From NCBI RefSeq assembly GCF_001278755.1, contig NZ_CP012601.1, positions 434,001 through 498,000 of the forward strand: 64,000 nt of DNA, written 5' to 3'. The notes under the pieces were generated by a model. It was not told the origin of the DNA. It saw only the letters and a program-made list of their open reading frames with translations, and ran no database searches. Of this stretch, positions 8,786 through 29,050 are shown one piece after another (the stretch's first letter is position 1; every line of letters starts with the position of its first letter). The position numbers were made by a program, and so were the translations under genes. This DNA is from Bacillus sp. FJAT-22090. GTDB taxonomy: Bacteria > Bacillota > Bacilli > Bacillales_A > Planococcaceae.

Positions 8786-9016
8786 ATGGATAACATAGAC
8801 AAGAGAAAACGTTTAGATGCTAATCCTTTTAGTTATCATATTACAAAGGATCATATTGTTTTTCTTGAGTTTCATGGGAAACGTGTAAAAATATTAAAAG
8901 GAAAAGATGCTGAGAGATTTTTAGAAAAAATGAATGATGCCAAAGACGAAAAAGAAGAACAATTAATATTAGCGAAACTCACTGGCAATTTTAAAAGAGG
9001 AAATGAGAGAAAATAA
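8786..9016 (+). CDS. Small hypothetical protein
   Basis: A 76-residue charged protein, MDNIDKRKRLDANPFSYHITK..., with a KRVKILKGKDAERFLEKM segment. I start it at the ATG at 8786 because GGAGG lies seven bases before it; the in-frame ATG at 8762 is upstream of that site. I do not recognise the family. There is no signal peptide, membrane segment or cysteine. It lies 15 bases before the DUF402 gene on the same strand and is probably cotranscribed. It could be a small regulatory or nucleic-acid-binding protein given its basic character, but that is a guess. Confidence 0.6.
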   Translation: MDNIDKRKRLDANPFSYHITKDHIVFLEFHGKRVKILKGKDAERFLEKMNDAKDEKEEQLILAKLTGNFKRGNERK

Positions 9017-9031
9017 TAAAGGGGAATAGAT

Positions 9032-10592: not shown

Positions 10593-10596
10593 GTTG

Positions 10597-13022: not shown

Positions 13023-13040
13023 TTGGCACGACACTTGCAT
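13023..13040 (+). promoter_or_regulatory. sigma-54 (-24/-12) promoter of urocanase-like gene 1
   Basis: TTGGCACGACACTTGCAT matches the consensus TGGCAC-N5-TTGCW exactly, with GG at -24 and GC at -12. The start codon is 46 bases downstream. Transcription should require RpoN and an AAA+ activator, both encoded nearby. Confidence 0.92.
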
Positions 13041-13086
13041 TATTAAAAGTGTATCAACAAAATTTTATTATTAGGAGGAATTAATA

Positions 13087-14811
13087 ATGACAACACCTGA
13101 AATCTTATATTCCGTGAAAGCACAAAGAGGACCTGAGTTACGTTGTAAAGGATGGAGACAGGAATCCATCCTACGTATGCTTGAAAATAACATGGAAAAC
13201 GCAGAAAAACCAGAAGAGCTGGTCATCTATGGGGGAATCGGGAAAGCTGCACGCAACTGGGAATCCTATCATGCCATCGTGAAATCCTTAAAAGAGTTAG
13301 AGGATGATGAGACATTGGTCGTGCAATCTGGGATGCCGGTGGCGATCTTCAAGACACATAAGTATGCCCCGACCGTGGTGATGGCAACGACGAACATCAT
13401 GAAAGCAGATTGGCCGACATTCTACGATCTACAAGATAAAAACCTAACGATCTATGCGAACTATACAGCGGCGCCTTGGGAGTATATCGGTACCCAAGGG
13501 GTTATCCAAGGAACATTTGAAACACTTTCGGCGATTGCACGCCTGCATTACAATGATTCACTCGTTGGAAAAATTCTACTTACTGCAGGAGCAGGAGGGA
13601 TGGGCGGGAATCAAACACGTGCGATGACGATGCATGGGGGTGTTGCCATCCTTTGTGACTCGAACATCGAAATCATTCAACGTCGTATCGACAAAGGCTT
13701 CATCGATGAGGTTGCGGGATCGCTGGACGAGGCGATTGCGAAGGCGAAGGAATATGCGGCTGCTGGGAAACCGCTTGGCATCGCAGTCGTAGGAAATGCG
13801 GCTGATATTTTTGAGGAAGTGCTTGAAAAAGGATGGCTACCAGACATATCTACTTCCATGACCCCAGGGCATGACCCAATCTCTTACTTACCAGCTGGTT
13901 ATACCGTGGAACAAGCGGAAGAGTTACGTGATTCCAACCGTGAACTTTACCTGGAAAAAGCACGTGAGACAATGGTCCGTGAATTGAAGGCGCTTATCAA
14001 ATTCATGGATTTGGGTGTCCATTCATTCGAATACGGAACAAGCCACCGCAAAGAATGCATCGATGCTGGAATGGACGAAAAAGAGGCGAAGCGACTACCG
14101 GGCTTCGTGGCAGAATATATCCGCCCGCTGTTCTGTGAGGGACGAGGACCATTCCGATGGGTTTGCCTATCGGGTGAGGCAGAGGACTTACGCAAGATTG
14201 ACGACATGATCCTCGAGAAATTCAGTGACGACCACCTGGTGACACGTTGGATCAAGCTCGCGAAGAAACATATCCCGATCGAAGCGCTACCTGCGCGTAT
14301 TTGTTACATGGGCTTCGGTCAACGCAAGGCCTTCGCATTAGAAGTGAACGACATGATCCGTCGCGGAGAACTAGCAGGACCTGTGGCATTCTCCCGTGAC
14401 AACCTGGATTCTGGTTCGATCGTGAACCCGACATTCGAATCAGAAAACATGAAAGACGGCAGTGACTTGATCTCTGACTGGCCGATGTTGAACGGACTTT
14501 TAAACGCAGTAGGCATGTGTGACCTCATCGCGATCCAAGCGAACTATTCAATGGGGGAGGCAGTTCATACAGGCGTGACGATGGTTGCGGATGGAACAGC
14601 AGAATCGGATATGAGACTCGAGGTGGCGATGACCGTAGACTCAGGCATAGGGGTTGTTCGTCACGCACAGGCGGGTTATGAAATTGCACAGGACGTAGCG
14701 AACGGAAAAGGAAAATTAACAGAGGAGAGCATCAAGATCCCATTATGGTGGAAGCGTGAAGCGACATTTGGACCTAAAGATATAAAGAAAGAAGAAGCTA
14801 GAGTGAAATAA
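13087..14811 (+). CDS. Urocanase-family hydratase, copy 1 (divergent HutU)
   Basis: A 574-residue member of the urocanase family (canonical HutU is about 552-560). Conserved features: the NAD loop GAGGMGGNQ (168-176), YGGIGKAARNW, the catalytic-region LPARICYMGFG with Cys406, and MKDGSDLISDWP. Divergent features: canonical FQGLP is IEALP; HHGGGVGxGYS is replaced by IQANYSMGE (483-491); YGQMTAGSW is YANYTAAPW; FDYGNN is FEYGTS; SAHDPL is TPGHDPI. These positions line the NAD and substrate site, so the substrate may not be plain urocanate. Base composition is visibly GC-richer (about 45-50% by eye) than neighbours. AGGAGG precedes the ATG; sigma-54 promoter at 13023. Confidence 0.85.
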   Translation: MTTPEILYSVKAQRGPELRCKGWRQESILRMLENNMENAEKPEELVIYGGIGKAARNWESYHAIVKSLKELEDDETLVVQSGMPVAIFKTHKYAPTVVMATTNIMKADWPTFYDLQDKNLTIYANYTAAPWEYIGTQGVIQGTFETLSAIARLHYNDSLVGKILLTAGAGGMGGNQTRAMTMHGGVAILCDSNIEIIQRRIDKGFIDEVAGSLDEAIAKAKEYAAAGKPLGIAVVGNAADIFEEVLEKGWLPDISTSMTPGHDPISYLPAGYTVEQAEELRDSNRELYLEKARETMVRELKALIKFMDLGVHSFEYGTSHRKECIDAGMDEKEAKRLPGFVAEYIRPLFCEGRGPFRWVCLSGEAEDLRKIDDMILEKFSDDHLVTRWIKLAKKHIPIEALPARICYMGFGQRKAFALEVNDMIRRGELAGPVAFSRDNLDSGSIVNPTFESENMKDGSDLISDWPMLNGLLNAVGMCDLIAIQANYSMGEAVHTGVTMVADGTAESDMRLEVAMTVDSGIGVVRHAQAGYEIAQDVANGKGKLTEESIKIPLWWKREATFGPKDIKKEEARVK

Positions 14812-14817
14812 AATACA

Positions 14818-14849
14818 AAACAGAACGGCATTAAGCCGTTCTGTTTTTT
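14818..14849 (+). terminator. Terminator after urocanase-like gene 1
   Basis: AACAGAACGGC, loop ATTAA, GCCGTTCTGTT and a T-tract. Copy 1 is therefore a monocistronic transcript. Confidence 0.9.
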
Positions 14850-14918
14850 GATGCGCATTTGTGACCATTGCAATGGCAAATAGATACGTAAAATCCTGTA
14901 TGATATTTATCCCTTCAT

Positions 14919-16628
14919 TTAAATAGTAGGTTTTTCAAGATCATGCTTTTTAATATGATACTGTAGACTTTGGCGTGTAATGCCAAGTTTTTTTGCAGCT
15001 CTAGATACATTCCAATTTGATTGTACTAATGTTGTTTCGATTAATTGTCTTTCCGTACTATTAAAGATTTTTTTAAGAGGTCTTTGAGTGTCCTCTCGCT
15101 GATTATAGGAAGTATTGGAATACATCATTATTTTTCCACGCATATAAGATGGAAGGTGCTCAATATCAATAGTTTCACCGTTTTCTGGAACTCGAATAAT
15201 GATGTTTTCAATCAAATGTTCTAATTCTCTAATATTTCCTGGCCAAGTATAATGAAGAAGACTTTTTCGTAACCAATCGGAAAGTGGTGGAACTGTTTTT
15301 GATAATTTTGCTTGATAAGTATCTAAAAAATAATTTATAAAAAAATGTACATCTTCAATTCGATCTCTAAGTGGTGGAATGTATAAACTTGTATGTGCAA
15401 TTCGATAAAATAAATCTAGTCGCATCCTATTTTCTGCAATAAGTTTTTCGGGATCTTCGTTACACGCACTTATAATAGTACATTTTACAGGTGCAACTTC
15501 GTTAGAGCCTACTTTACGAACTAGCCTTTCTTGTAGGACACGCATTAATTTTGTTTGCAAAGTAATGGGCATCGAGTTAATTTCATCTAAAAATAAGGTG
15601 CCATCTTGTGCATATTCAAATAATCCCATTTGGTCTGTAGCACCTGTAAATGCACCTTTTACTGTTCCAAATAACGTACTTTCGAGTAAATTTTCTGGGA
15701 TTGCAGCACAATTTATTGCAACGAATGGTTTATTTGCCCGCGGACTATGGTTATGCATACTTTGCGCAAATAACTCTTTTCCAGTACCAGTCTCGCCTAC
15801 AATTAATGTATCCGCATTATGTATAGAAACATTTTGAGCTTCTTTTATAAGTTCTAATAGAGGAAGGCTTTTTCCCTTAATATCATTAAATGTAAAAATA
15901 GTGCCATTCTTAGAATGGACTTTATCTTCGCTTGAAACATTTGCTTGTCTTTTTAGTTCGATTGTTTCGTGCAGTCGGTCTTTCAATTTTGATTCATTCG
16001 TGCTGATAGAAAATACTGAAATGGTTTTCCCGTCTTTTTGGATAGGAAATGTACTATAGTTAACGTATTTAGGTATACCATTAATTTTTGAATGTGCCCG
16101 ATATCTAGAATAGATAGGTTTTCCTGTTTTAAATGTATGTCGATGTTCCGAGTATTGCGGATTGTAATTATAGACAGACCATAAATGTTTACCTATTATA
16201 TCCTTGCTAGATAAACCTTCCATTTTCTCTTGAGCATCATTATACAAAGTAATTTCTCCTTCTGAATTACTCATCATAACTCCTTCATCAAGAGCTTCAA
16301 TAATTTTTTCTAAGCAAAACAATCTTTCCTCTATATAAGTTATATCGCTTTCCGAATATTTTAGGCATAAAAAAATAATAGAACAATCGGAAGAAAAAAC
16401 TTTCACATCTACTGATAACTTTCTTCCATCTAATTGAAGAGTAAATGATTCATTGTTGTTAAACTGGTTGTAATCACAGTCAATAAAACTACTAATAGCC
16501 ATTCCATTTGAGATCTTAATAGGAAAGTCCATATCTAAGTCATACCAAAGAATATCATGATTCTCGTTTAGTGCAATCACTCCATCTACAAAACTTCGAA
16601 TAATTGATCCGATAGATGCTACAGTCAT
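14919..16628 (-). CDS. PAS-domain sigma-54-dependent transcriptional activator
   Basis: About 569 residues from the ATG at 16628, which follows GGGAG; an in-frame ATG 26 codons upstream lacks a site. An N-terminal sensor with a PAS domain (about 100-215; EGVMMSNSEGEITLYNDAQE) is followed by an AAA+ domain with Walker A GETGTGKE (278-285), the sigma-54 contact loop GAFTGA (325-330) and Walker B TLFLDEI (344-350), then a Fis-type helix-turn-helix (ATTL-like VQSNWNVSRAAKKLGITRQSLQYHIKK) at the C-terminus. It resembles RocR and BkdR. Lying between two sigma-54 promoters, it very probably activates both. The PAS domain may sense the pathway substrate. Confidence 0.92.
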   Translation of the reverse strand: MTVASIGSIIRSFVDGVIALNENHDILWYDLDMDFPIKISNGMAISSFIDCDYNQFNNNESFTLQLDGRKLSVDVKVFSSDCSIIFLCLKYSESDITYIEERLFCLEKIIEALDEGVMMSNSEGEITLYNDAQEKMEGLSSKDIIGKHLWSVYNYNPQYSEHRHTFKTGKPIYSRYRAHSKINGIPKYVNYSTFPIQKDGKTISVFSISTNESKLKDRLHETIELKRQANVSSEDKVHSKNGTIFTFNDIKGKSLPLLELIKEAQNVSIHNADTLIVGETGTGKELFAQSMHNHSPRANKPFVAINCAAIPENLLESTLFGTVKGAFTGATDQMGLFEYAQDGTLFLDEINSMPITLQTKLMRVLQERLVRKVGSNEVAPVKCTIISACNEDPEKLIAENRMRLDLFYRIAHTSLYIPPLRDRIEDVHFFINYFLDTYQAKLSKTVPPLSDWLRKSLLHYTWPGNIRELEHLIENIIIRVPENGETIDIEHLPSYMRGKIMMYSNTSYNQREDTQRPLKKIFNSTERQLIETTLVQSNWNVSRAAKKLGITRQSLQYHIKKHDLEKPTI

Positions 16629-16710
16629 GGTAGTTTTACTCCCTTCCATAAATAAAATTATCAATAGTATAACATAATTCTTCTGACTATTTAGAAGAGT
16701 CTGCATGTAA

Positions 16711-16800
16711 AATTTATCTGCACCTAATAAAACTCAACTCTCTCTATATGTTTTGATAAATAAATAAAATTATTTAATTGGAAGTAAAAAAATATCTGCA
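16711..16800. promoter_or_regulatory. Putative activator sites before urocanase-like gene 2
   Basis: AATTTATCTGCA (16711-16722) and AAATATCTGCA (16790-16800) resemble the AATATTATCTGC pair before copy 1. They lie in the gap between the divergent activator gene and the sigma-54 promoter at 16921. The remainder of 16629-16984 is AT-rich. Confidence 0.4.
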
Positions 16801-16919
16801 GTGTTTTGAATGATTTTGGCATCTCTCTATCTATCAAAATTTCGGTGATAACAAAAATAGACTTATAAAATCAAATGAATTTACGGAATTTTAAAATAGT
16901 TTCAAAAAGATTTAGAAAA

Positions 16920-16937
16920 TTGGCACGGCTCTTGCAT
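16920..16937 (+). promoter_or_regulatory. sigma-54 (-24/-12) promoter of urocanase-like gene 2
   Basis: TTGGCACGGCTCTTGCAT again fits TGGCAC-N5-TTGCW exactly. The start codon is 47 bases downstream, the same geometry as copy 1. It probably also drives the long catabolic operon to 29050, subject to the hairpin at 18796. Confidence 0.92.
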
Positions 16938-16984
16938 TATAAAAATGTGTAGAAAACAATTTTATAATTTAGGAGGAAATAGTA

Positions 16985-18778
16985 ATGACAACACCTGAAA
17001 TCTTATATTCCGTGAAAGCACAAAGAGGACCTGAGTTACGTTGTAAAGGATGGAGACAGGAATCCATCCTACGTATGCTTGAAAATAACATGGAAAACGC
17101 AGAAAAACCAGAAGAGCTGGTCATCTATGGGGGAATCGGGAAAGCTGCACGCAACTGGGAATCCTATCATGCCATCGTGAAATCCTTAAAAGAGTTAGAG
17201 GATGATGAGACATTGGTCGTGCAATCTGGGATGCCGGTGGCGATCTTCAAGACACATAAGTATGCCCCGACCGTGGTGATGGCAACGACGAACATCATGA
17301 AAGCAGATTGGCCGACATTCTACGATCTACAAGATAAAAACCTAACGATCTATGCGAACTATACAGCGGCGCCTTGGGAGTATATCGGTACCCAAGGGGT
17401 TATCCAAGGAACATTTGAAACACTTTCGGCGATTGCACGCCTGCATTACAATGATTCACTCGTTGGAAAAATTCTACTTACTGCAGGAGCAGGAGGGATG
17501 GGCGGGAATCAAACACGTGCGATGACGATGCATGGGGGTGTTGCCATCCTTTGTGACTCGAACATCGAAATCATTCAACGTCGTATCGACAAAGGCTTCA
17601 TCGATGAGGTTGCGGGATCGCTGGACGAGGCGATTGCGAAGGCGAAGGAATATGCGGCTGCTGGGAAACCGCTTGGCATCGCAGTCGTAGGAAATGCGGC
17701 TGATATTTTTGAGGAAGTGCTTGAAAAAGGATGGCTACCAGACATATCTACTTCCATGACCCCAGGGCATGACCCAATCTCTTACTTACCAGCTGGTTAT
17801 ACCGTGGAACAAGCGGAAGAGTTACGTGATTCCAACCGTGAACTTTACCTGGAAAAAGCACGTGAGACAATGGTCCGTGAATTGAAGGCGCTTATCAAAT
17901 TCATGGATTTGGGTGTCCATTCATTCGAATACGGAACAAGCCACCGCAAAGAATGCATCGATGCTGGAATGGACGAAAAAGAGGCGAAGCGACTACCGGG
18001 CTTCGTGGCAGAATATATCCGCCCGCTGTTCTGTGAGGGACGAGGACCATTCCGATGGGTTTGCCTATCGGGTGAGGCAGAGGACTTACGCAAGATTGAC
18101 GACATGATCCTCGAGAAATTCAGTGACGACCACCTGGTGACACGTTGGATCAAGCTCGCGAAGAAACATATCCCGATCGAAGCGCTACCTGCGCGTATTT
18201 GTTACATGGGCTTCGGTCAACGCAAGGCCTTCGCATTAGAAGTGAACGACATGATCCGTCGCGGAGAACTAGCAGGACCTGTGGCATTCTCCCGTGACAA
18301 CCTGGATTCTGGTTCGATCGTGAACCCGACATTCGAATCAGAAAACATGAAAGACGGCAGTGACTTGATCTCTGACTGGCCGATGTTGAACGGACTTTTA
18401 AACGCAGTAGGCATGTGTGACCTCATCGCGATCCAAGCGAACTATTCAATGGGGGAGGCAGTTCATACAGGCGTGACGATGGTTGCGGAGTGTGACCTCA
18501 TCGCGATCCAAGCGAACTATTCAATGGGGGAGGCAGTTCATACAGGCGTGACGATGGTTGCGGACGGAACGGCAGAATCGGATATGAGACTCGAGGTGGC
18601 GATGACCGTAGACTCAGGCATAGGGGTTGTTCGTCACGCACAGGCGGGCTATGAAATTGCACAGGACGTAGCGAACGGAAAAGGAAAATTAACAGAGGAG
18701 AGCATCAAGATCCCATTATGGTGGAAGCGTGAAGCTACATTTGGACCTAAAGATGTGAAAAAGGAAGTTAAGGCATAA
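16985..18778 (+). CDS. Urocanase-family hydratase, copy 2 with internal 25-residue duplication
   Basis: A 597-residue near copy of the gene at 13087. As far as I could compare, the first 1500 or so bases are identical. It then carries a perfect in-frame 75-base tandem duplication (18416-18490 and 18491-18565) that repeats ECDLIAIQANYSMGEAV and the following HTGVTMVA, the very loop that replaces the canonical GGGVG motif. After the duplication the copies differ by a few silent changes and at the last codons (VKKEVKA instead of IKKEEARVK). Whether a protein with a doubled active-site loop folds is unclear. AGGAGG precedes the ATG; own sigma-54 promoter; first gene of the catabolic operon. Confidence 0.85.
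   Translation: MTTPEILYSVKAQRGPELRCKGWRQESILRMLENNMENAEKPEELVIYGGIGKAARNWESYHAIVKSLKELEDDETLVVQSGMPVAIFKTHKYAPTVVMATTNIMKADWPTFYDLQDKNLTIYANYTAAPWEYIGTQGVIQGTFETLSAIARLHYNDSLVGKILLTAGAGGMGGNQTRAMTMHGGVAILCDSNIEIIQRRIDKGFIDEVAGSLDEAIAKAKEYAAAGKPLGIAVVGNAADIFEEVLEKGWLPDISTSMTPGHDPISYLPAGYTVEQAEELRDSNRELYLEKARETMVRELKALIKFMDLGVHSFEYGTSHRKECIDAGMDEKEAKRLPGFVAEYIRPLFCEGRGPFRWVCLSGEAEDLRKIDDMILEKFSDDHLVTRWIKLAKKHIPIEALPARICYMGFGQRKAFALEVNDMIRRGELAGPVAFSRDNLDSGSIVNPTFESENMKDGSDLISDWPMLNGLLNAVGMCDLIAIQANYSMGEAVHTGVTMVAECDLIAIQANYSMGEAVHTGVTMVADGTAESDMRLEVAMTVDSGIGVVRHAQAGYEIAQDVANGKGKLTEESIKIPLWWKREATFGPKDVKKEVKA
18416..18565 (+). repeat. 75-base perfect tandem duplication inside urocanase-like gene 2
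   Basis: Two adjacent 75-base units beginning TGTGACCTCATCGCGATCCA at 18416 and 18491. The unit is present once in copy 1. The reading frame is kept. Confidence 0.95.
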
Positions 18779-18795
18779 GGAAATGAAAAAAGGTA

Positions 18796-18838
18796 GTAGA
18801 TATCTAGACATAGGATATCTACCCTTCTTTTCTTTTAG
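18796..18838 (+). terminator. Hairpin/attenuating terminator after urocanase-like gene 2
   Basis: GTAGATATC (18796-18804) pairs with GATATCTAC (18814-18822), followed by a T-rich tract. It would reduce, not necessarily stop, transcription into the transporter genes, for which I see no other clear promoter. Confidence 0.65.
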
Positions 18839-18887
18839 TTTCATGGATAAATGGCTCTAAAAAAACAAAAAAATAGGGGGCAATGGA

Positions 18888-19712
18888 ATGAAAAAGAATT
18901 TATTTCTTACGATGGTCATGATTTTCTCTTTAATCTTAGCGGCATGTGGGTCAGGAGAGGCTGATGCAGATGCAGATAAGAATGGTAGCGGTGGAGATAA
19001 GAAAACACTTAAAGTTGCAACAGAGGCTAATTATGCGCCTTTTGTTTATTTGGATAAAGGAGATATGACTGGTTTCGATGTAGACTTTATGAATGCTGTT
19101 GCAGCAGAAGCTGGTTATGAGATTGAGCTAGTTAATGTTGGATGGGATCCACTGTTTGTTGAAGTAAAAAGTAAGCTTTCTGATTTAGGGATATGTGCAA
19201 TTACAATCAATGATGAAAGAAAGCAAACGTACGATTTCTCAGTTCCATATTATCTATCAACTAATAAAATTCTAGTTCCAGAAGGTAGTGATATTAAAAC
19301 TGCTGCGGACTTAAAGAATGATAAGGTAGTAGCGGTATTAGGTGGAACGACTGGTCAGGAAGCAGTGGAAGGTATTCTTGGTAAAAATAATAGTAATATA
19401 AAAAAATTCGATAATAATAACTTAGCTATCATGGAAATGATTAGCGGTGGGGCTGATGCTGTTGTTGCAGATAATGCAGTAGTGGAAGAATATGCAAAAA
19501 ATAATCCCGACCAAAAGCTTGTAGTAATTACAGATGAACAAGGATTTGAGAGTGAGTTTTATGGAATTATGTTTCCTAAGGGAAGTGAACTGACAGGAGA
19601 TTTTGATAAAGCGGTGACTACAATTCTTGAAAATGGAACATATACAAAAATCTATAAAGAATGGTTTGGAACAGAACCGGATGTTGATACAATACTTGCT
19701 CAACAGGAATGA
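18888..19712 (+). CDS. Amino acid ABC transporter substrate-binding lipoprotein
   Basis: A 274-residue family 3 solute-binding protein. The N-terminal signal peptide ends in the lipobox LILAAC, so it should be lipid-anchored outside the membrane. A low-complexity linker rich in Asp, Ala and Gly follows. The body (LKVATEANYAPFVYLDKGDMTGFDVDFMNAVA, LGICAITINDERKQTYDFSVPYY, AVLGGTTGQEAVE) is that of polar amino acid binding proteins (FliY/GlnH/ArtP type). It feeds the permease and ATPase encoded next. Given the setting, histidine or a derivative is a reasonable ligand guess. In ITINDERKQTYDFS the binding Arg is conserved. Confidence 0.9.
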   Translation: MKKNLFLTMVMIFSLILAACGSGEADADADKNGSGGDKKTLKVATEANYAPFVYLDKGDMTGFDVDFMNAVAAEAGYEIELVNVGWDPLFVEVKSKLSDLGICAITINDERKQTYDFSVPYYLSTNKILVPEGSDIKTAADLKNDKVVAVLGGTTGQEAVEGILGKNNSNIKKFDNNNLAIMEMISGGADAVVADNAVVEEYAKNNPDQKLVVITDEQGFESEFYGIMFPKGSELTGDFDKAVTTILENGTYTKIYKEWFGTEPDVDTILAQQE

Positions 19713-19722
19713 TATGAAAATG

Positions 19723-19769
19723 AAATAGCGTAACTTTGAATTTATTAGTTACGCTATTTAGTTTTTACT
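19723..19769 (+). terminator. Intraoperon hairpin after the binding protein gene
   Basis: AAATAGCGTAAC pairs with GTTACGCTATTT and a short T-rich stretch follows. Such hairpins after a binding protein gene commonly raise its level over permease and ATPase. Confidence 0.7.
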
Positions 19770-19783
19770 AGGGGGGGAACCTA

Positions 19784-20440
19784 TTGGATTTTAGACTAGA
19801 CATTTTAGTGGAATATATTCCTTTCTTTTTAAAGGGAACGTTATTAACAATAGGATTATCACTTATTGGAATACTACTAGGAACAATATTAGGATTACTA
19901 ATAGGTTTAGGAAAAATGATGCGAAATAAAGTTATTTCTTTTATATGTAGTTGCTATATAGTATTTTTCCGAGGAACACCTTTATTTGTCCAAATCTTAT
20001 TGATCCACTTTGGGGTAGTTCCTATGATTATTGGTCATACAAATGGAATAATAGCTAGTATTATCGCACTTTCATTAATAGCGGGTGCTTATATATCAGA
20101 AATATTCAGAGCTGGGATTCAATCGATTGATAAAGGCCAAATGGAAGCATCACGTTCACTAGGTATGAATCATGTGCAATCAATGAAAGATGTAATTTTG
20201 CCACAAGCATTCAAACGAATGATTCCACCACTGGGTAATGAGTTTATCGTCCTAATTAAGGAATCTTCACTTGCAGCGATTGTTGCAACTCCAGAGCTGA
20301 TGTATTATGGGCGTGCATTAGCAAGTCAATATTACAGAGTATGGGAGCCTTATCTGACCGCTGCCCTTATTTATCTCGTACTAACAACTACTTTAAGCTT
20401 CTTGTTAAATCATCTTGAAAGAAGGTTGGCAACAGAATGA
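19784..20440 (+). CDS. Amino acid ABC transporter permease
   Basis: A 218-residue HisM/GlnP-type permease with about five membrane segments. [17 protein letters not shown] and the EAA loop [43 protein letters not shown] are diagnostic. The start is TTG at 19784 after AGGGGGGG. The 3' end overlaps the ATPase start (ATGA), so the two are coupled. One permease gene means it likely works as a homodimer. Confidence 0.93.
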
Positions 20441-21159
20441 TACAAGTGAAGAACTTAAAAAAATCATTTGGTAGTAACGAAGTATTAAAAGATATTAATG
20501 TTGTCATAAAGCCAAAAGAAGTTGTGGTAGTTATTGGTCCATCAGGGTCCGGAAAATCGACCTTTTTACGATGCTTGAATTTACTGGAATCCATCACGGA
20601 TGGTCGTGTTGCTATAGAAGGTGTTGATATAACGGATAAGAAGACAGATATTAATAAAGTTAGAACTGATGTAGGTATGGTGTTTCAACAATTTAATTTA
20701 TTCCCCCATAAAACGGTAATGGAAAATATAATACTTGCCCCTATGAGGGTGAGAAAACTTTCGGAAGAACAAGCAAAGAAAAAAGGCTTAGATTTACTTC
20801 GCAAAGTGGGACTTGAAGAGAAAGCAAATGCTTATCCCGATTCTCTATCAGGCGGTCAAAAACAACGAGTAGCTATTGCAAGGGCACTTGCGATGGAGCC
20901 GAAAATTATGCTTTTTGATGAACCGACATCTGCATTAGATCCTGAAATGGTTGGGGAAGTTCTGGAAGTAATGAAGCAATTAGCAAAAGAGGGGATGACG
21001 ATGGTAGTAGTAACTCATGAAATGGGATTTGCTCGAGAAGTAGGTGACCGCGTTATATTTATGGATGGTGGTTTCATAGTGGAAGAAAATATTCCAAAAG
21101 AAATTTTTGAAAACCCACAACACGATCGTACAAAATCCTTCTTGAGCAAGGTTCTCTAA
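20437..21159 (+). CDS. Amino acid ABC transporter ATP-binding protein (GlnQ/HisP type)
   Basis: A 240-residue ATPase with Walker [10 protein letters not shown]-loop [13 protein letters not shown], signature [17 protein letters not shown], Walker [15 protein letters not shown] and the switch His in VVTHEMGF. These are the PAAT-family features. It drives uptake by the permease and binding protein encoded just upstream. Confidence 0.95.
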
Positions 21160-21199
21160 TAGTTTCCGAGATTTAAGAAATCAAAAATGGGGTGAAAAA

Positions 21200-22549
21200 A
21201 TGAATAGCCTTCCAGAATCATTAGAAAATCATCAAGTTTCGTTTAATGAGCAACAAAAGATATATTCGTTTCGGAATTTCTTAAAGTTCTTCTTTTTTAG
21301 TACGATAGGAATCTTTATGTTTTTTATACCTATCAATATAAATGATAAAAATTCCATTCCTTTAGATCATTTGGTTACATGGATTCGGTCATTTTCTAAT
21401 ACGGCAAATGCCTATTATGCCATGATATTAGTAGTTTTGGGTGCAGCTTACCCATTTTACAAAAAGACATGGCGCAAAAGTAAAGTGGAAATGGTGTTAT
21501 CTGGTTTTAAAGTATTAGGAGCTATTGCTGCTTTTCTTGTATTGTTTGAAATTGGTCCTGCCTGGCTTATGGCAGAAGATATGGGCCCATACTGGTACTA
21601 TAGTTTACTCATTCCTATTGGAGTTCTTGTACCAATTGGTGCCATCTTTTTAGCAATGTTAGTCGGATATGGATTACTTGAATTTATTGGTATTTTCATG
21701 CAGCCGATCATGCGTCCAATATGGAGAACTCCTGGTAGATCTGCTATTGATGCAGTTGCATCTTTTGTTGGTAGTTACTCAATTGGTTTGTTAATAACGA
21801 ACAGAATTTACAAGGAAGGTAAATATACAAAAAAAGAAGCAGTTATTATTGCAACGGGTTTTTCAACTGTGTCCGCTACATTTATGATTGTTGTGGCAAA
21901 CACTTTAGACTTAATGCATATTTGGAATTTATATTTTTGGCTCACGTTTTTAGTTACTTTTGTGGTAACAGCAATTACGGTAAGAATTTGGCCAATAAAT
22001 AAAATGAGCGATGAGTATTACACAGAAGAAGGTTATCCAGAAGAAATTATAAAAGAGAATCGAGTAAAGTATGCATGGGAGCAAGCAATGCTTACTGCTC
22101 ATAATGCTCCTAAATTAAAGACAAATATTTATGAGAATGTCAAAGATGGATTAGTAATGGCAATGGGTATTTTACCGTCCATTATGTCCATTGGATTATT
22201 TGGGCTAATATTGGCCAATCATACACCGGTGTTCGACTTTCTTGGTTATATTTTTTATCCATTAACTTGGATTCTTCAAATTCCAGAACCACTTCTAGCT
22301 GCAAAGGCTGCAGCCATTAACCTGATCGATATGTTTTTACCGTCATTGGTTGTATTGGAGGCAAGTTTAGAAACTCGATTTATCATTGGATCTCTTTCCA
22401 TCTCAACGATTCTTTTCTTCTCTGCTTTGATACCTTGTATTCTATCAACGGAAATACCAATTAAGATGACTCATATATTAGCAATTTGGTTTTGGAGAAC
22501 AATATTAACGCTAATTATTGTTACACCACTTGCATTTTTATTCCTCTAA
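21200..22549 (+). CDS. YjiH-like membrane protein with nucleoside-recognition (Gate) domains
   Basis: A 449-residue protein with about ten membrane segments. The halves contain PGRSAIDAVASFVGSYSIGLLITNRIYKEGKYTKKEAVIIATGFSTVSATFMIVVANTLDL-type Gate sequence and a second one near LLAAKAAAINLIDMFLPSLV, matching the YjiH/Gate family. Members are uncharacterised or act as transporters. GGTG before the ATG serves as ribosome binding site. Its place between the ABC importer and the HutI-like gene suggests transport of the substrate or export of a product. The assignment to family is firmer than the function. Confidence 0.75.
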   Translation: MNSLPESLENHQVSFNEQQKIYSFRNFLKFFFFSTIGIFMFFIPININDKNSIPLDHLVTWIRSFSNTANAYYAMILVVLGAAYPFYKKTWRKSKVEMVLSGFKVLGAIAAFLVLFEIGPAWLMAEDMGPYWYYSLLIPIGVLVPIGAIFLAMLVGYGLLEFIGIFMQPIMRPIWRTPGRSAIDAVASFVGSYSIGLLITNRIYKEGKYTKKEAVIIATGFSTVSATFMIVVANTLDLMHIWNLYFWLTFLVTFVVTAITVRIWPINKMSDEYYTEEGYPEEIIKENRVKYAWEQAMLTAHNAPKLKTNIYENVKDGLVMAMGILPSIMSIGLFGLILANHTPVFDFLGYIFYPLTWILQIPEPLLAAKAAAINLIDMFLPSLVVLEASLETRFIIGSLSISTILFFSALIPCILSTEIPIKMTHILAIWFWRTILTLIIVTPLAFLFL

Positions 22550-22607
22550 AATAGCGAGGTGTGGCTGAAATGTGTCTCTTACTACTTATAATGGAGGTAT
22601 GAAAACA

Positions 22608-23849
22608 ATGAGTGAAAAAATAGAAGTCGACCTTTTAATTAGTAATGCAGCGGAAATCGTAACTTGTTCTGGCGAAGGTATGTCTGGCATTGGAGTTCTA
22701 AAGAATACTTCGATTGTAATTAATGATGGAAGAATTATTGGAGTCGGATTAAAAGATGAACTAAGTAAGAAGTTTGATATTGAAAATACACAAATAATCG
22801 ATGCGACTGGAAAAGTAGTTGCACCTGGATTTGTAGATTGTCATACACATTTAGTATTTAACGGTACACGCGTAGAGGAATACGCAGCAAAACTGACTGG
22901 CAACAATCCTGAAAAATTAAAAGAACTTGGCATTACTACAGGTCCTAATCGGACGATAGAATTGACACGGGATGCTTCCATAGAAGATTTATTTGAACAG
23001 TCCAAGAAAAGAATGCTAAGCATGTTAAATTACGGAATTACAACAATAGAGAGTAAAAGTGGGTATGGTTTGACTACCGAAAGTGAAATTAAAATACTTG
23101 AGGTGGGAAGAAGGCTTGATAGAGAAACTCCTGTCGATGTATTAAATACTTTTCTGGGAGCACATGGTTTTCCGAAAGGTATGGAAAAGAGTGATTATCT
23201 CTCTATTATTATAAATGAAATGATTCCAGAAGTAGGTAAGCGCAATCTTGCAGAATTCTGTGATGCTTGGTGTGATGAAGGTTACTATACGGCGAAGGAA
23301 TCAAAGCTAATATTGGAAGCTGCTTTGCAATATGGAATGAAACCGAAGTTACACGCAGATGCTTATTCCTATATTGGAGGATCTGATTTAGCGGTGGAGA
23401 TGAACATGGTTTCCGTAGATCATCTTAATTATACACCTGTAGAAGTAATGGAAAGGCTAGCACATTCCAAAGTCACAGGAGTATTAATGCCGGCATTGGA
23501 TTTTGCTGTTAGACACAAACAACCATTTGATGCGAGAAAAATGCTCGACTTAGGGATGGAAATAGCTCTTGCAACTGATTTATGCCCTGCATGTTATACA
23601 GAGTCCATGCAATTTGTTATTAACCTTGCATGTAGACTGTATAAATTCACAGTTGAAGAAGCAATAAAAGCGGCTACATATGGAGGTGCACGAGCACTAA
23701 ATTTAAATGATCGTGGTGTTATTGAAGTAGGTAAACTAGCAGACTTGCAGATTTGGGATATTCCTACGTATAAACATATAGCCTACGAGCTTGGAACGAA
23801 CATAGTTGAAACAGTTATTAAAGACGGCAAAGTAGTAGTCAATCGATAA
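22608..23849 (+). CDS. Imidazolonepropionase-like amidohydrolase (divergent HutI)
   Basis: About 413 residues from the ATG at 22608, ten bases after GGAGG; the earlier in-frame ATGs precede that site. Metal ligands of HutI are all present at B. subtilis-equivalent positions: His79 and His81 (DCHTHLVF), His249 (KLHAD) and Asp324 (ATD). The substrate Arg in NGTRVEEY, Tyr in SGYGL and His272 (VDHL) are kept. However Glu252, which follows in the canonical HADE motif and takes part in catalysis, is Ala here (HADA), and STDCNPGS is ATDLCPAC. So it hydrolyses a cyclic amide but probably not plain imidazolonepropionate in the standard way. Eighteen bases separate it from the M20 gene. Confidence 0.85.
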   Translation: MSEKIEVDLLISNAAEIVTCSGEGMSGIGVLKNTSIVINDGRIIGVGLKDELSKKFDIENTQIIDATGKVVAPGFVDCHTHLVFNGTRVEEYAAKLTGNNPEKLKELGITTGPNRTIELTRDASIEDLFEQSKKRMLSMLNYGITTIESKSGYGLTTESEIKILEVGRRLDRETPVDVLNTFLGAHGFPKGMEKSDYLSIIINEMIPEVGKRNLAEFCDAWCDEGYYTAKESKLILEAALQYGMKPKLHADAYSYIGGSDLAVEMNMVSVDHLNYTPVEVMERLAHSKVTGVLMPALDFAVRHKQPFDARKMLDLGMEIALATDLCPACYTESMQFVINLACRLYKFTVEEAIKAATYGGARALNLNDRGVIEVGKLADLQIWDIPTYKHIAYELGTNIVETVIKDGKVVVNR

Positions 23850-23866
23850 AATAGGAGGAGTTATAG

Positions 23867-25027
23867 ATGACAAAAAAACAATTCACTTCAGCTGCAGAAG
23901 AAGTAAAAGAAGAGCGCTTGCTCCAGTTGTTTTTGGAACTTGCAAAAATTAATGGTCCAAGTACTAAAGAACAACTTGTAGCGGAATATTTAATGAAAGC
24001 ATTACCGGAGCTTGGATTTACAATAGAATTTGATGAAGCACATAAAAATTTTAATGGTGAAGTTGGTAATTTAATTGCTTGGCATGAGGGAACTGATGCA
24101 ACTATTCCTCCACTATTTTTCTCTACACATATGGATACAGTGCTTCCGACTGATGGACTTAAACCAGTTATAAAAGATGGAATTATCTATTCTGATGGCA
24201 CAACTATATTGGGTGCAGATGATCGAGCTGCATTAGCTGCATATTTAGAAGGAATTCGAGCGGTTGTTGAAAGCGGGATACAACATGGACCAATTGAATT
24301 TGTTTTAACTGTTAATGAGCAACCAGGACTTGTGGGAGCAAAATATATGGACTATTCAAAGATTAAGAGTAAAGCAGGTTACATTTTTGATAGTAGTGGC
24401 GATGTCGGTCAAATAATTTTAAAAGGACCATACAGTAGTCGCATCTGGATGGAAGTGGAAGGTAGAGCGGCACATATTGCACTAAACGCTGAGGAAGGAA
24501 ATAGTGCATTTCTAATAGCTGCAAATGGCTTATTGAATATGAAGTTAGGCACCATTGATGAAGAGACACTAGCTAATATAGGTATTATAAATGGAGGAGA
24601 ATTAACATCCATTATTCCTGGTTCTGTGACGGTGGCAGGAGAAGTACGAAGCTTTTCTAAAGATAAATTAGAACGCCAGTTAAAGCATATGGAGGATGCG
24701 ATGCAAGAGGCAGCTAGAAAAAGTGATGGTAAAGTAAATGTTCGTATTGAAAAGAAATATAGCGGATTTGATATTCCTAAGGATCATATTCTAACCTCCA
24801 CGGTTGAAAAATCAGCGAGAAACATACATGTAAAACCATATTTAACCGAAACATTAGGAGGTGCAGATACTAATGTACTTAACGAGAATGGTTTGACTTG
24901 TATTACTTTGGGTAATGGGTTTCAAAACATCCACTCCTTTAGAGAATGTATTAGTATAGAAAACTTAATAAATACAGGTAGACTAACAGCTGAATTAATA
25001 GAACAATGGTATGAGAATCATAAATAA
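23867..25027 (+). CDS. M20-family metallohydrolase (peptidase T-like)
   Basis: A 386-residue protein of the M20 fold: THMDTV (His88, Asp90), GADDRAALAAYLEG (Asp118) and IHSFRECI (C-terminal His) are metal-binding motifs. The catalytic pair, normally EE, reads NEQ (Glu151-Gln152): the general base stays, but the second Glu, a zinc ligand in this family, is Gln. FDSSGDVGQII supplies the Asp ligand. The dimerisation domain is residues about 185-300. It likely cleaves an amide or formimino-type bond of a small molecule. AGGAGG before ATG. It lies between HutI-like and HutH-like genes, where HutG would be expected. Confidence 0.8.
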   Translation: MTKKQFTSAAEEVKEERLLQLFLELAKINGPSTKEQLVAEYLMKALPELGFTIEFDEAHKNFNGEVGNLIAWHEGTDATIPPLFFSTHMDTVLPTDGLKPVIKDGIIYSDGTTILGADDRAALAAYLEGIRAVVESGIQHGPIEFVLTVNEQPGLVGAKYMDYSKIKSKAGYIFDSSGDVGQIILKGPYSSRIWMEVEGRAAHIALNAEEGNSAFLIAANGLLNMKLGTIDEETLANIGIINGGELTSIIPGSVTVAGEVRSFSKDKLERQLKHMEDAMQEAARKSDGKVNVRIEKKYSGFDIPKDHILTSTVEKSARNIHVKPYLTETLGGADTNVLNENGLTCITLGNGFQNIHSFRECISIENLINTGRLTAELIEQWYENHK

Positions 25028-25066
25028 TTATTCTATTTAGTAGTAGACATAGGGAGTGAACGGACA

Positions 25067-26581
25067 ATGAGAAATGAAGAAGTAGTTGAATTAGATGGAC
25101 GTACGTTAGATAGACATAAAATTGAGCGTGTGGTTTATGGGGATGTAAAGGCGATTGTACCAGAGGCTGATTTAATAAGGGTACGTGCTAGTCGGGAAAG
25201 AATCGAAAAACAGCTTAGAGATGGAAAAGTGATCTATGGAGTCAATACTGGATTTGGTAAATTAAGTGATATCGAAATAGAAAAAGAAGATATCGCGAAA
25301 TTACAATTAAATTTACTACGTGCAGACGCAGTTGGGGTAGGAGACCCACTACCAACACCCGTTGTACGGGCGATGATGGTTCTTCGTGCAAATGCACTAG
25401 CAAAAGGTTTTTCAGGGATTAAAGAAGACACACTTCTATTATTAGTAAATATGATTAATAAAGGTGTTCATCCTATTGTCCCTAGTAAGGGGTCAGTTGG
25501 AGCAAGTGGCGATTTGGCACCGTTAGCTCATGTAGCAATAGTGTTAATAGGTGAGGGGAAAGCCGAATATGAAGGTGAGATTCTTTCGGGTGCTGAAGCT
25601 CTCAAGCGAGCTGGTTTAACACCTGTTTCCTTAGAAGCAAAAGAAGGACTTGCATTAATCAATGGGACACAGGCGATGACTGGAGTTGGAGTTGTTACAA
25701 TTAATGAAGCAGAACGTGTAGGCTTAGCCGCGGATATGGCTGCATGCTTAACAATGGAAGCACTACAAGGAATTATTTCTGCTTTTGATAGTGAATTATT
25801 AGCTGTACGTCCACATCCGGAACTGGAATTCGTCGCTTCTCGAATGAGAAATTGGTTGGAAGGAAGTAAACGAATTACGCATCAAGGGGAAATAAGAATG
25901 CAAGATGCATACTCCATTCGATGTATTCCTCAAGTTCATGGTGCATCCTGGCAAGCATTTAATTATGTAGAAGAAAGACTGAAAATTGAAATTAATTCTG
26001 CAACGGATAACCCTATTATATTAGAAAATGGTGAAATAATTTCTGGTGGACATTTTCATGGTCAACCAATTGCATTGGCAATGGATTTTTTGAAAGTTGG
26101 GGCTGCAGAGTGGGCGAATATTTCAGAAAGAAGAACGGAACGTCTAGTTAATCCCCAATTAAGTGGGTTATCTCCATTTTTAGCTATGGATCCAGGTTTA
26201 GAATGTGGATTAATGGTTCCGCAATATGCTGCGGCTGCTCTAGTTTCGGAAAATAAAGTCCTTGCTCATCCAGCAAGTGTTGATTCCATTCCGACGTCAG
26301 CAAACCAGGAAGATCATGTGAGTATGGGGACTATTGGGTCACGCCAAGCACGTGAAATTGTTCATAACAGCGCGAGAGTCATTGCTATTGAGTTAATATG
26401 TGCATCTCAAGCGATTTACTTAGAGAAAGCGGAAAACCAACTTGCACCAGCGACAAGGGATTACTTAGAAAAAGTGCGAGCGATATGCCCGCCATTAGAT
26501 AGTGATCGAGCAATCTCTGACCAAATGGAAGCATTAGCCCAGTATATTTTGCGAGAAGACGTATTAAAATTCGGCAAGTAA
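25067..26581 (+). CDS. Histidine ammonia-lyase-like MIO enzyme (divergent HutH)
   Basis: A 504-residue lyase. The tripeptide that forms the MIO electrophile is intact (GSVGASGDLAPLAH, Ala146-Ser147-Gly148). Tyr57 (YGVNTGFG), Asn199 (NGTQ), Tyr282/Arg285 and Glu415 (SANQEDHVSM) are present, the last being typical of histidine lyases. The specificity position differs: canonical LSHAAGVG is RADAVGVG, putting Asp87 where HutH has His83 and tyrosine lyase has the residue that selects tyrosine or phenylalanine. GGNFHGEP is GGHFHGQP. I expect elimination of an amine from a histidine-like acid that is not histidine itself, although histidine cannot be excluded. GGGAGTG precedes the ATG. Confidence 0.85.
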   Translation: MRNEEVVELDGRTLDRHKIERVVYGDVKAIVPEADLIRVRASRERIEKQLRDGKVIYGVNTGFGKLSDIEIEKEDIAKLQLNLLRADAVGVGDPLPTPVVRAMMVLRANALAKGFSGIKEDTLLLLVNMINKGVHPIVPSKGSVGASGDLAPLAHVAIVLIGEGKAEYEGEILSGAEALKRAGLTPVSLEAKEGLALINGTQAMTGVGVVTINEAERVGLAADMAACLTMEALQGIISAFDSELLAVRPHPELEFVASRMRNWLEGSKRITHQGEIRMQDAYSIRCIPQVHGASWQAFNYVEERLKIEINSATDNPIILENGEIISGGHFHGQPIALAMDFLKVGAAEWANISERRTERLVNPQLSGLSPFLAMDPGLECGLMVPQYAAAALVSENKVLAHPASVDSIPTSANQEDHVSMGTIGSRQAREIVHNSARVIAIELICASQAIYLEKAENQLAPATRDYLEKVRAICPPLDSDRAISDQMEALAQYILREDVLKFGK

Positions 26582-26617
26582 TATTAATAAAGCTATTTCT
26601 AAAATGGGGGGAAGGAA

Positions 26618-27805
26618 ATGACGGAATTTCAATTAAAAAGTAACATGGATAGCCTCATTACAGATGTATTTGAGGACGTAATTAAATGGAGAAGATATTT
26701 TCATCAAAACCCTGAATTATCGTATGAAGAGATTAAAACATCTCAATATGTTTTTGAAACACTCACATCATTTGGAAATATAGAAGTTACACGTCCAACA
26801 AAAACAAGTGTAGTGGGACGTCTGAAAGGTAGCCAGCCCGGTGAAGTTCTAGCGATGCGAGCTGATATGGATGCTTTGCCCATAACGGAAGAAACTGGGT
26901 TGCCATTTGCTTCAAGTAATTCGGGCGTCATGCACGCTTGTGGGCATGACGGACATACTGCTATGCTCCTTGGTGCTGCTAAAATTCTTGTGCAACTAAA
27001 GGATGAAATAAAAGGTGAGATAAGATTTATTTTCCAACACGCTGAAGAACTCTTTCCTGGTGGTGCGCAAGAAATGGTGAAAGCTGGAGTGCTGGATGGT
27101 GTCGACAAAATAATTGGATTACATGTTTTTTCCAATATTCCAACTGGAAAAGTTATTATGCCTTATGGAACATTCTCAGCAAATTCAGACGTGTTTGACA
27201 TTAAAATTATTGGTAAGGGGGGACATTCCTCTCAGCCTGAAGAAACAATTGATCCCATATCAATAGGAGCGCAAGTAGTAAATAACATGCAGCATATAAT
27301 TGCACGCAATGTAGCGCCATTAGAACAAGCGGTAGTTTCCGTTACTGAGTTTAATGGTGGAACCGCAAAAAATATCATACCCGATTCCATTAAAATCGGT
27401 GGTGGAGTAAGAAGTTTTGATCAAGGAGTTCGAGAAAAAATTGTACATCGTATGGAAGAAATAGTGAAAGGAGTTTCAGAGGCTCACAAAGCATCCTACG
27501 AGTTTGATTATATATATGGTTATGGTTCTGTAATGAACAATCACAAATTAACGGAGGAAATGGAAGAACTTATTAAAGAAGAATTTAGTGATGAAACAAT
27601 TATGATTGTTCCACCGATGATGGGTGGGGAAGACTTCTCAGCTTTTTCAGACAAAGTTCCTGGCTGTTTTATAGGTGTTGGAGCAGCATTTGCTGATGAT
27701 TGGCGTAATTTTCCCCATCATCATCCTCGATTTGATATTGATGAAAAATCTTTGGAGATGGGCCTTAAGCTATTGATTAAAGCACCGTTTAAATTATTGA
27801 ATTAA
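26618..27805 (+). CDS. M20D amidohydrolase (IAA-amino acid hydrolase/aminoacylase-like)
   Basis: A 395-residue enzyme with standard M20D motifs: RYFHQNPELSYEE, MRADMDALPI, MHACGHDGHTAMLLGAA, FQHAEELFPGGA (Glu base and ligand both present), GLHVFSNIPTGKV and MGGEDFSAFSDKVPG. Unlike the M20 gene upstream, all metal-binding positions look normal. Family members remove acyl groups from amino acids. Here it could release the amino acid from an N-acyl or N-formimino intermediate or free the initial substrate from a conjugate. GGGGGGAAGG precedes the ATG, and it follows the HutH-like gene by 36 bases. Confidence 0.88.
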   Translation: MTEFQLKSNMDSLITDVFEDVIKWRRYFHQNPELSYEEIKTSQYVFETLTSFGNIEVTRPTKTSVVGRLKGSQPGEVLAMRADMDALPITEETGLPFASSNSGVMHACGHDGHTAMLLGAAKILVQLKDEIKGEIRFIFQHAEELFPGGAQEMVKAGVLDGVDKIIGLHVFSNIPTGKVIMPYGTFSANSDVFDIKIIGKGGHSSQPEETIDPISIGAQVVNNMQHIIARNVAPLEQAVVSVTEFNGGTAKNIIPDSIKIGGGVRSFDQGVREKIVHRMEEIVKGVSEAHKASYEFDYIYGYGSVMNNHKLTEEMEELIKEEFSDETIMIVPPMMGGEDFSAFSDKVPGCFIGVGAAFADDWRNFPHHHPRFDIDEKSLEMGLKLLIKAPFKLLN

Positions 27806-27877
27806 CAAGTACATCATCTTAGAAAAACTCTATAAATAATTTTCCATAAAATAATGATAGAGAAGAGGAAGAGATGT

Positions 27878-29050
27878 ATGTTTCAAGAACCTGTTGTAGC
27901 AGCAATGGTGATTTTAGGATTAATCGCTGTTGGAGAGGTAATATCTATTTTAACAAAAGCAAGAATTCCAATGCTGTTCATAGCGTTGATGGGTTATCTT
28001 GTACTAATTTGGACAGGAATATTACCAAAGAGTATGATTGTTGATTCTGGATTCGTAACTGTAGGTACTGTTTTAGGTACTGCTCCGATTATTGTTCATA
28101 TGGGAACATTAATTCCGTTAAAAAGCATTAAGTCCCAATGGAGAGCGGTTGCAATAGCAGTGTTAGGTATAATCTTTGCTTCTGTGCTAATCTTAACAAT
28201 TGTTACTTTCATTTTTGATTATTCTGTAGCAGTTGCGGGTGTTGGTCCTCTAACTGGAGGTATTATCGCCCTTCTTGTTACGTCAGAAGGACTAGCGGAG
28301 TTAGGCTTAGTTTCACTGGTAACAATTCCTGTATTAATTATGGCGATACAATCCTTATTTGGAATACCTATCGCGACAAATATTCTCCGTAAATATGCAC
28401 TAAAAATTCGTTCTGAAATGGACAATGGAACATACGTCTCAGAATATAAGGCAAGCGATAATAATGAAAAGGAAAATGACAAGTTTTTTCTTCCGGATAA
28501 ATTTAGAAGTAATTTAATTTTACTCTTCTTATTATTTGTCGGTGGAGCTCTTGCAGTTGTTCTAGGGAAATACACACCTATTCCATATAGTTTATGGGCT
28601 CTAGTTATCGGTGTTTTAGGAAGGTTAATTGGATTTTATCCAGAGAGAGTTATGGAGCGTGCGAATGCATTTACTGTCGGTATGGCAGGAATTATATTTT
28701 TAATTATTATCATGATGAATGATATTACATTTGGCCAATTTATTGGTTACCTCCCAGAAGTACTATCTATTATGGTAGTTGGGATTATAGGAATTATTGT
28801 CGGTGCGTACATCGGATCAAAAATATTTAAGTGGGACCCACTTAAAGGGATTCCAGTGGCCCTAACTGCTACGTTTGGCTTCCCTGGAGATTATATTGTG
28901 TGTGAAGAAGTTAGCAGAAGTGTAGGAAGAGATAAAGAAGAAGAAGAAAAGATTTTTAATGAGATATTAACCCCCATGCTCGTAGGTGGTTTTACAACTG
29001 TAACTGTGGGGTCGGTTATTATTGCAAGTATATTAATAAAAACACTATAA
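27878..29050 (+). CDS. Polytopic membrane protein, possible transporter
   Basis: About 390 residues from the ATG at 27878, just after GAGGAAGAG; an in-frame ATG at 27854 lies before that site. It has about ten membrane segments in two halves separated by a charged loop (SEYKASDNNEKENDKFF). I do not recognise the family with confidence. Its layout (ARIPMLFIALMGYLVLIWTGILP, PLTGGIIALLVTSEGLAELG, and a C-terminal ALTATFGFPGDYIVCEEVSRSVG) looks like a secondary carrier with re-entrant Gly-rich loops. Last gene of the catabolic operon, so import of the substrate or export of a breakdown product is likely. Confidence 0.7.
   Translation: MFQEPVVAAMVILGLIAVGEVISILTKARIPMLFIALMGYLVLIWTGILPKSMIVDSGFVTVGTVLGTAPIIVHMGTLIPLKSIKSQWRAVAIAVLGIIFASVLILTIVTFIFDYSVAVAGVGPLTGGIIALLVTSEGLAELGLVSLVTIPVLIMAIQSLFGIPIATNILRKYALKIRSEMDNGTYVSEYKASDNNEKENDKFFLPDKFRSNLILLFLLFVGGALAVVLGKYTPIPYSLWALVIGVLGRLIGFYPERVMERANAFTVGMAGIIFLIIIMMNDITFGQFIGYLPEVLSIMVVGIIGIIVGAYIGSKIFKWDPLKGIPVALTATFGFPGDYIVCEEVSRSVGRDKEEEEKIFNEILTPMLVGGFTTVTVGSVIIASILIKTL

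Follow-up and report, generated by a model that had tools for sequence, protein, structure and literature searches.

A 64,000-nucleotide (nt) stretch of the Bacillus sp. FJAT-22090 genome (positions 434001 to 498000 of a single 4.21-Mb contig; hereafter the window, in which coordinates are counted unless otherwise noted) contains a cluster of genes resembling those for histidine utilization (Hut), and we consider it likely that this cluster specifies a second, inducible histidine-type pathway that would convert N-tau-methylhistidine to glutamate. The cluster occupies positions 13024 to 29050 and comprises two genes for homologs of the urocanate hydratase HutU, an opposite-strand activator gene between them, an ATP-binding cassette (ABC) importer, two genes for membrane proteins, homologs of the imidazolonepropionase HutI and the histidine ammonia-lyase HutH, and two hydrolases of the M20 family. 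An initial annotation, made from the letters alone, had recognized this gene set and the absence of HutG and HutF from it, had proposed that the cluster is sigma-54 driven, and had pointed out that specificity residues are changed in HutH (Asp87), HutI (Ala252), and HutU (the GGGVG loop) while the catalytic cores are kept; the alignments and searches described below agree with it on each of these counts. They also turned up the second, canonical hut set that it had thought worth seeking. Two further features that the annotation does not mention are the rpoN-like gene beside the cluster and a 75-bp duplication in the second HutU copy.

This canonical set consists of an ordinary HutU-HutI pair (genome positions ~3864193 to 3867156), HutH (2769048), and HutG (2813206), and because these four enzymes are encoded elsewhere in the genome, the window cluster would constitute a second, specialized route. 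Its enzymes are 45% (HutU), 39% (HutI), and 53% (HutH) identical to the canonical copies. In HutH (positions 25067 to 26581, forward strand), a predicted N-tau-methylhistidine ammonia-lyase, Asp87 occupies the site of His83 (R-A-D87 versus R-S-H in the canonical enzyme); in HutI (22611 to 23849, forward strand), a predicted N-methyl-imidazolonepropionase, HADAY replaces HADE (H-A-D-A versus H-A-D-E); and in copy 1 of HutU (13087 to 14811, forward strand; 574 amino acids), a predicted N-tau-methylurocanate hydratase with an ANYSMGE loop, IQ--ANYSMGE is aligned with HHGGGVGMGY, making the loop two residues shorter. Retained are the 4-methylideneimidazole-5-one (MIO) triad A-S-G of HutH, the cysteine of the HutU ARIC motif, and the H-x-H and ATD motifs of HutI. 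Each of 28 genomes examined that carry these variant genes has a HutH match, and in 26 of them there are two or more (G050 and G238 have one each, and the second match in G444 is split into two pieces).

The same replacements recur in relatives. Across 58 HutH sequences, site 83 is Asp in 34, Cys in 3, and Asn in 1, which together are all 38 of those tied to a variant HutU, and it is His in all 20 others. To be tied here means to be encoded at the same locus, with three exceptions: locus L095 begins past HutU, and the HutU of its genome is in L054; one Asp sequence from Synergistaceae lies on the same contig as L069; and one Cys sequence (L156) lies on another contig of the L068 genome. The 58 sequences represent 56 distinct ones (L053 and L065 come from one genome, as do L054 and L095), and those shorter than 400 amino acids were dropped before the count, including a fragment in L061 (L061:17672-18028), a 119-amino-acid open frame that is 74% like variant HutH and is perhaps the remnant of a second copy. 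Site 252 of HutI is Ala in 40 of 40 variant sequences (HADAY, HTDAY, or HTGAY; 26 from the window and its family, 12 from named records, and 2 from anaerobes), and in 29 canonical sequences it is Glu (22), Gln (6), or Gly (1) and never Ala. The HutU loop reads AN--YSMG in all 28 close variant sequences and GGG in 19 of 20 canonical ones, and the same 28 carry the replacements Q130 to N, M131 to Y, H444 to N, and R455 to F (numbered as in the canonical enzyme of this genome). The loop, Y126, N175, N439, and F450 are invariant across 17 variant HutU sequences, which represent Bacilli, Synergistaceae, anaerobic Bacillota, and a deltaproteobacterium; Q130 is unchanged in several distant variant sequences, and the loop of a Roseovarius metagenome-assembled genome (MAG) reads ENYSMGE. 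The concern, voiced when the altered residues were first identified, that they might be common among Hut enzymes is thus not borne out by this comparison, which used canonical homologs rather than assayed enzymes. An AlphaFold model of HutU built on 17 sequences had a mean predicted local distance difference test score of 60, with the altered loop below 50, and was set aside.

The genes of the cluster are also inherited together. At E ≤ 1e-100, HutI-like genes were found in 26 of the family's 261 genomes, spread over 6 of its 19 genera. At E ≤ 1e-210, HutU-like genes were found in 3 genomes among the 398 sampled from the class and likewise in 3 among the 398 sampled from the phylum, counts that include the present genome each time. 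The 25 relatives' loci within the family hold variant HutU in 24 cases, HutH in 23, and the second amidohydrolase in 8, and in every one of them a PepT-like M20 gene adjoins HutI. In the window, this gene (23867 to 25027, forward strand; 316 bits against a cut-off of 274) encodes what we predict to be the terminal amidine hydrolase acting in HutG's stead. The second Glu of the M20 EE motif is a metal ligand; the motif is EQ in all 25 family sequences versus EE in the genome's own paralog.

HutG itself is missing from the window, the three places matched by the hutG model all lying outside it, and a tblastn search with the genome's HutG (threshold of 1e-3), which finds itself as a control, had no match in the window or at 41 relatives' loci (42 records in all), although absence from beside the cluster is a weak test, as the canonical HutG also lies apart from its HutU and HutI. 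The best HutF match in the genome reaches 47.8 bits against a cut-off of 413, and the formylglutamate deformylase family PF05013 has no match anywhere in it; the formylglutamate route would therefore be without a known enzyme. All 33 Bacilli loci (the 25 of the family plus L061 to L067 and L071, of which L065 and L066 repeat genomes already counted) have the M20 gene, and FtcD (glutamate formimidoyltransferase) was not found in them. Conversely, L069, L070, L152, L153, and L156 have FtcD together with a cyclodeaminase-type protein, and the M20 gene was not found there; FtcD is above its cut-off in both loci scanned, and the cyclodeaminase-type protein is below that of the cyclohydrolase model. 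Neither M20 nor FtcD was found in the stretches of L068 (where the contig ends past HutI), L154, or L123. The variant core has, in what is apparently a new arrangement, two exchangeable endings, an M20 hydrolase in Bacilli and an FtcD type in anaerobes.

Expression of the cluster would depend on a PrdR-like activator that, with sigma-54, turns on two promoters. One sigma-54 box, TGGCACGACACTTGCA (13024 to 13039, forward strand, no mismatch), starts 63 nt 5' of HutU copy 1, and the other, TGGCACGGCTCTTGCA (16921 to 16936, forward strand, one mismatch), starts 64 nt 5' of HutU copy 2 (16985 to 18778, forward strand; 597 amino acids). The number of such boxes alone is unremarkable (three hits with at most one mismatch in the window versus 1.13 expected, and at least three in 12 of 100 shuffles), and their weight comes instead from position and conservation: a box lies within 250 nt upstream of 33 of 42 relatives' HutU genes, 31 of them exact and 2 with one mismatch, and the nine genes without a box comprise six from distant relatives, two with likely miscalled starts, and one from a truncated stretch. 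The activator gene (14919 to 16706, reverse strand) immediately precedes HutU in all but one of the 24 HutU-bearing family loci (23 of 24); we call it only PrdR-like because its score against the PrdR model NF041552 (366 bits) is below the curated cut-off of 795. No convincing activator-binding palindrome was found in 37 regions upstream of HutU, the commonest word occurring in 7. Adjoining the cluster is an rpoN-like (sigma-54) gene (29673 to 30962, reverse strand), so named from reading its sequence, a homolog of which is present in 8 of the 25 family loci, downstream of the cluster in 7.

From this gene content, we infer the substrate, every reaction, and the induction. The ABC system would import N-tau-methylhistidine; the HutH-like MIO lyase would eliminate ammonia to give N-tau-methylurocanate; the HutU-like enzyme would hydrate this to N-methyl-imidazolonepropionate; the HutI-like enzyme would open the ring, yielding N-(N'-methylformimidoyl)-L-glutamate; and the PepT-like M20 enzyme, replacing HutG, would release L-glutamate and probably N-methylformamide, while a conjugated form may enter with the help of the amidohydrolase and the last membrane protein. 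Since the MIO triad is retained, a free alpha-amine is likely, and since anaerobic relatives use FtcD, an unthiolated C2-H fits; a free alpha-amine, three altered enzymes, a sulfur-free C2 at the formyl level, and a new hydrolase gene together point to a histidine substituted on a ring nitrogen. The N-tau-methyl form is favored because the product would remain L-glutamate and because a pathway of this kind is in print, to judge by the title of a paper on N-tau-methylhistidine degradation in bacteria (Beliaeva, Atac, and Seebeck 2022, ACS Chem Biol 17:1989). Passages of PMC9960084 cite that paper for the three canonical steps only. Action of histidine ammonia-lyase on N-tau-methylhistidine is likewise in print.

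Canonical Hut shares with the window the same three enzyme families, the same expected order of chemistry, and the catalytic cores; it differs in that His83, Glu252, and GGGVG are replaced in the window, where an M20 gene takes the place of HutG and a sigma-54 activator is present. The 2022 work reportedly describes homologs of histidine ammonia-lyase, urocanate hydratase, and imidazolonepropionase that are clustered in Bacillus terra and other soil bacteria and lead to L-glutamate, and the window likewise has these three homologs together and distinct from canonical Hut. A literature search by title or abstract start gave no paper on this gene cluster among the matches listed.

Several points weigh against N-tau-methylhistidine as the substrate. 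The window enzymes still score above the cut-offs of the ordinary NCBIfam models (648 bits against 375 for hutU, 373 against 298 for hutI, and 656 against 539 for hutH), and FtcD is known to use plain formiminoglutamate. Genes of the MttB methyltransferase family in two anaerobic-type relatives (L068:4189-5628; L070:445-1977 and 10103-11557; L156:3254-4714, 7886-9373, and 17919-19478) are a better match for quaternary amines than for a methyl group on a ring nitrogen; these genes, which have open reading frames, were assigned by family search in L068 and L070 and by similarity in L156, and none was found in L069, L152, or L153. Assignment of the substituent to the tau and not the pi nitrogen, and its identification as methyl, are inferred. 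Finally, identity of the cluster with the pathway reported in 2022 is no more than probable, going by what that work reportedly contains.

Of the other explanations, it is unlikely that the substrate is a different ring-modified histidine (N-alkylated otherwise or C-substituted) that keeps C2-H and the alpha-amine: the sequence tells only of changed positions that probably touch the ring, and the MttB-type genes close to the variant genes of L068/L156 and L070 could point to methylated compounds of another kind, but methylhistidines are, to our knowledge, the abundant natural candidates, and the pathway in print, by its title, concerns the tau isomer. We regard as quite improbable that N-pi-methylhistidine (e.g., from anserine) is degraded, with N-methylglutamate as the end product. 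The gene logic would be the same, and the amidohydrolase could, going by its family, cut a beta-alanyl dipeptide; however, no N-methylglutamate-oxidizing family appeared among the matches of the ten cluster proteins (the best 25 matches for three of them) in a search confined to the cluster, and the HutI change falls on Glu252, which we take to lie near the ring nitrogen, facing the tau nitrogen. A second ordinary histidine pathway, placed under sigma-54 control and altered by neutral active-site drift, would accommodate the passed hutU, hutI, and hutH cut-offs as well as the sigma-54 boxes, yet it is very unlikely, as drift would need to have affected each of the three enzymes and to have been maintained in different phyla, and the 33 Bacilli loci tested have the M20 gene and no HutG match. 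Site 83 of HutH, moreover, is presumably the position of His82 in the Geobacillus histidine ammonia-lyase. Mutating that residue abolishes activity completely, according to PMC11432326, and so the histidine is essential there. Ergothioneine-type degradation (ergothionase, NF058530, and NF058531) resembles the window cluster in being derived from Hut and directed at a modified histidine. That the window serves ergothioneine, S-methyl-ergothioneine, or another thiohistidine is nevertheless barely credible, for although the best-scoring NCBIfam model for its HutU is that of S-methylthiourocanate hydratase (NF058531; 649.9 bits versus 648.2 for hutU), the protein is below the curated cut-offs of both this model (880) and that of thiourocanate hydratase (NF058530; 611.9 bits against 930), its HutH has the MIO triad whereas ergothionase is said to be MIO-free, and FtcD in relatives would imply a C2 that bears hydrogen and no sulfur.

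The imidazole-type substrate put forward in the initial annotation is thus upheld as to a Hut-like route, a ring-modified histidine, sigma-54, and three altered enzymes, but the thiolated candidate included in it is unlikely, given the thio-model cut-offs and the FtcD ending; and its statement that no published match could be named was probably wrong, in view of the 2022 title on N-tau-methylhistidine degradation. Apparently new are the exchangeable endings, the HutH His83 losses, the change of the M20 motif from EE to EQ, and a relative in which flavin monooxygenase genes replace HutH and HutU. The FtcD ending, the flavin-monooxygenase relative, and the His83 losses are not among the things that the 2022 work is said to contain, which does not imply that they are absent from it.

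To place the variant enzymes phylogenetically, quick trees of 33 HutU and 42 HutI sequences were built, omitting near-duplicates and those Roseovarius genes that are split; variant HutU forms one clade and variant HutI forms one clade (Shimodaira-Hasegawa-like approximate likelihood ratio test, 100). Copy 1 of the window HutU falls in one clade with 14 other variant sequences, and the variant HutU clade joins a long-branched Spirochaetaceae sequence, possibly a false joining according to the warning of the tool. HutH departs from this pattern: the Asp sequences of Bacilli group with canonical HutH of Bacilli (100/98), and the Cys sequences, like the Asp sequences from the deltaproteobacterium and Synergistaceae, lie elsewhere, with deep forks that are without resolution. 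A 32-sequence HutH tree, which left out 26 of the 58 sequences (17 close Bacilli, 5 further Bacilli, and 4 long-branched, one being the Roseovarius Asn sequence), needs three changes to account for Asp and has a single Asp clade in 0 of 200 bootstrap trees; a 37-sequence quick tree with the long branches kept also needs three. A single clade nevertheless survives an approximately unbiased test (P = 0.139 for Asp and 0.121 for Asp plus Cys), and because this test and the deep forks leave a single origin open, repeated loss of HutH His83 is only favored.

Several relatives depart from the layout of the window. At L060:3201-9741 (G238), genes for a HutI-like protein (60% identity) and a PepT-like M20 protein (57%) accompany an HpaB-type monooxygenase (by Pfam), with a flavin reductase and a sodium symporter as neighbors, by sequence reading; a related activator gene lies alongside, and variant HutH and HutU are not present in the stretch. 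The substrate of this set is perhaps an imidazole acid, for instance (methyl)imidazoleacetate. At the Synergistaceae locus L154, an Asp-type HutH has as its neighbors the amidohydrolase (38%) and the last membrane protein (30%). Importers at variant loci differ, being of the ABC, NhaC, amino acid permease, sodium symporter, LIV-type ABC, or tripartite ATP-independent periplasmic (TRAP) type. A homolog of HutP (PF09021; L068:1051-1494) is encoded near the variant HutU and HutI genes of a Bacillota MAG. A Spirochaetaceae MAG (fen_1365; L090) has a HutU with an odd SSAGGAAG loop and a nearby HutI, branching beside the variant clades, and is possibly a further altered Hut-like pathway. Tentatively, and as a possibility that we rate below even chances, variant HutU and HutI may form a portable core for methylated imidazole acids, joined to independently recruited His83-less HutH enzymes and to two unrelated endings (the EQ-type M20 hydrolase or, in anaerobes, formimidoyl transfer to tetrahydrofolate releasing methylamine), with HutI and M20 in one relative being fed by an HpaB-type flavin monooxygenase, perhaps acting on methylimidazoleacetate.

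The two HutU genes of the window are near-identical from the promoter onward. They are alike from the sigma-54 box on, homology beginning at 13023 and 16920, and their DNA agrees at 99.2% of 1571 and 97.1% of 278 aligned positions. Copy 2, the first gene of the long row, carries an in-frame tandem duplication of 75 bp (two units; 18416 to 18565, forward strand) that spans the altered loop and is lacking from copy 1; it may impair the copy 2 protein. Within each of L036, L049, L051, and L062, the two HutU copies give a gap-free alignment of 1722 bases and are 94.5 to 99.6% alike, and the activator gene lies between them too, accompanied in L062 by the first membrane protein gene. Near-identical copies flanking the activator in these four loci suggest gene conversion or repeated duplication. 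These copies are direct repeats, the arrangement is seen in more than one genus, and recombination between them could remove the activator.

The remaining genes of the cluster are all on the forward strand. The polar amino acid ABC importer consists of a binding protein (18888 to 19712), which is below the cut-offs of specific models, a permease (19784 to 20440), and an ATPase (20437 to 21159), the latter two accompanying the cluster at 6 of the 25 family loci. The first membrane protein (21200 to 22549) has the Gate/nucleoside-recognition domain PF07670 and is present in 22 of the 25. The accessory M20 amidohydrolase (TIGR01891; 26618 to 27805) may set the amino acid free when it arrives as an N-acyl derivative or a dipeptide, and the second membrane protein (27854 to 29050), which has no Pfam or NCBIfam match at 0.001 and accompanies the amidohydrolase in seven family loci, possibly takes up a conjugate.

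Muscle protein releases N-tau-methylhistidine, which is excreted and, because animals are not known to degrade it, is used as a clinical marker. General models label all three variant enzymes as Hut, and the combination of a HutH without His83, a HutI with HxxAY, a HutU with NYSMGE, and an EQ-type M20 enzyme is a signature that would separate such pathways from ordinary histidine use. The anaerobic FtcD branch predicts release of methylamine, and the enzyme trio as a whole amounts to a natural experiment on substrate change in a conserved pathway.

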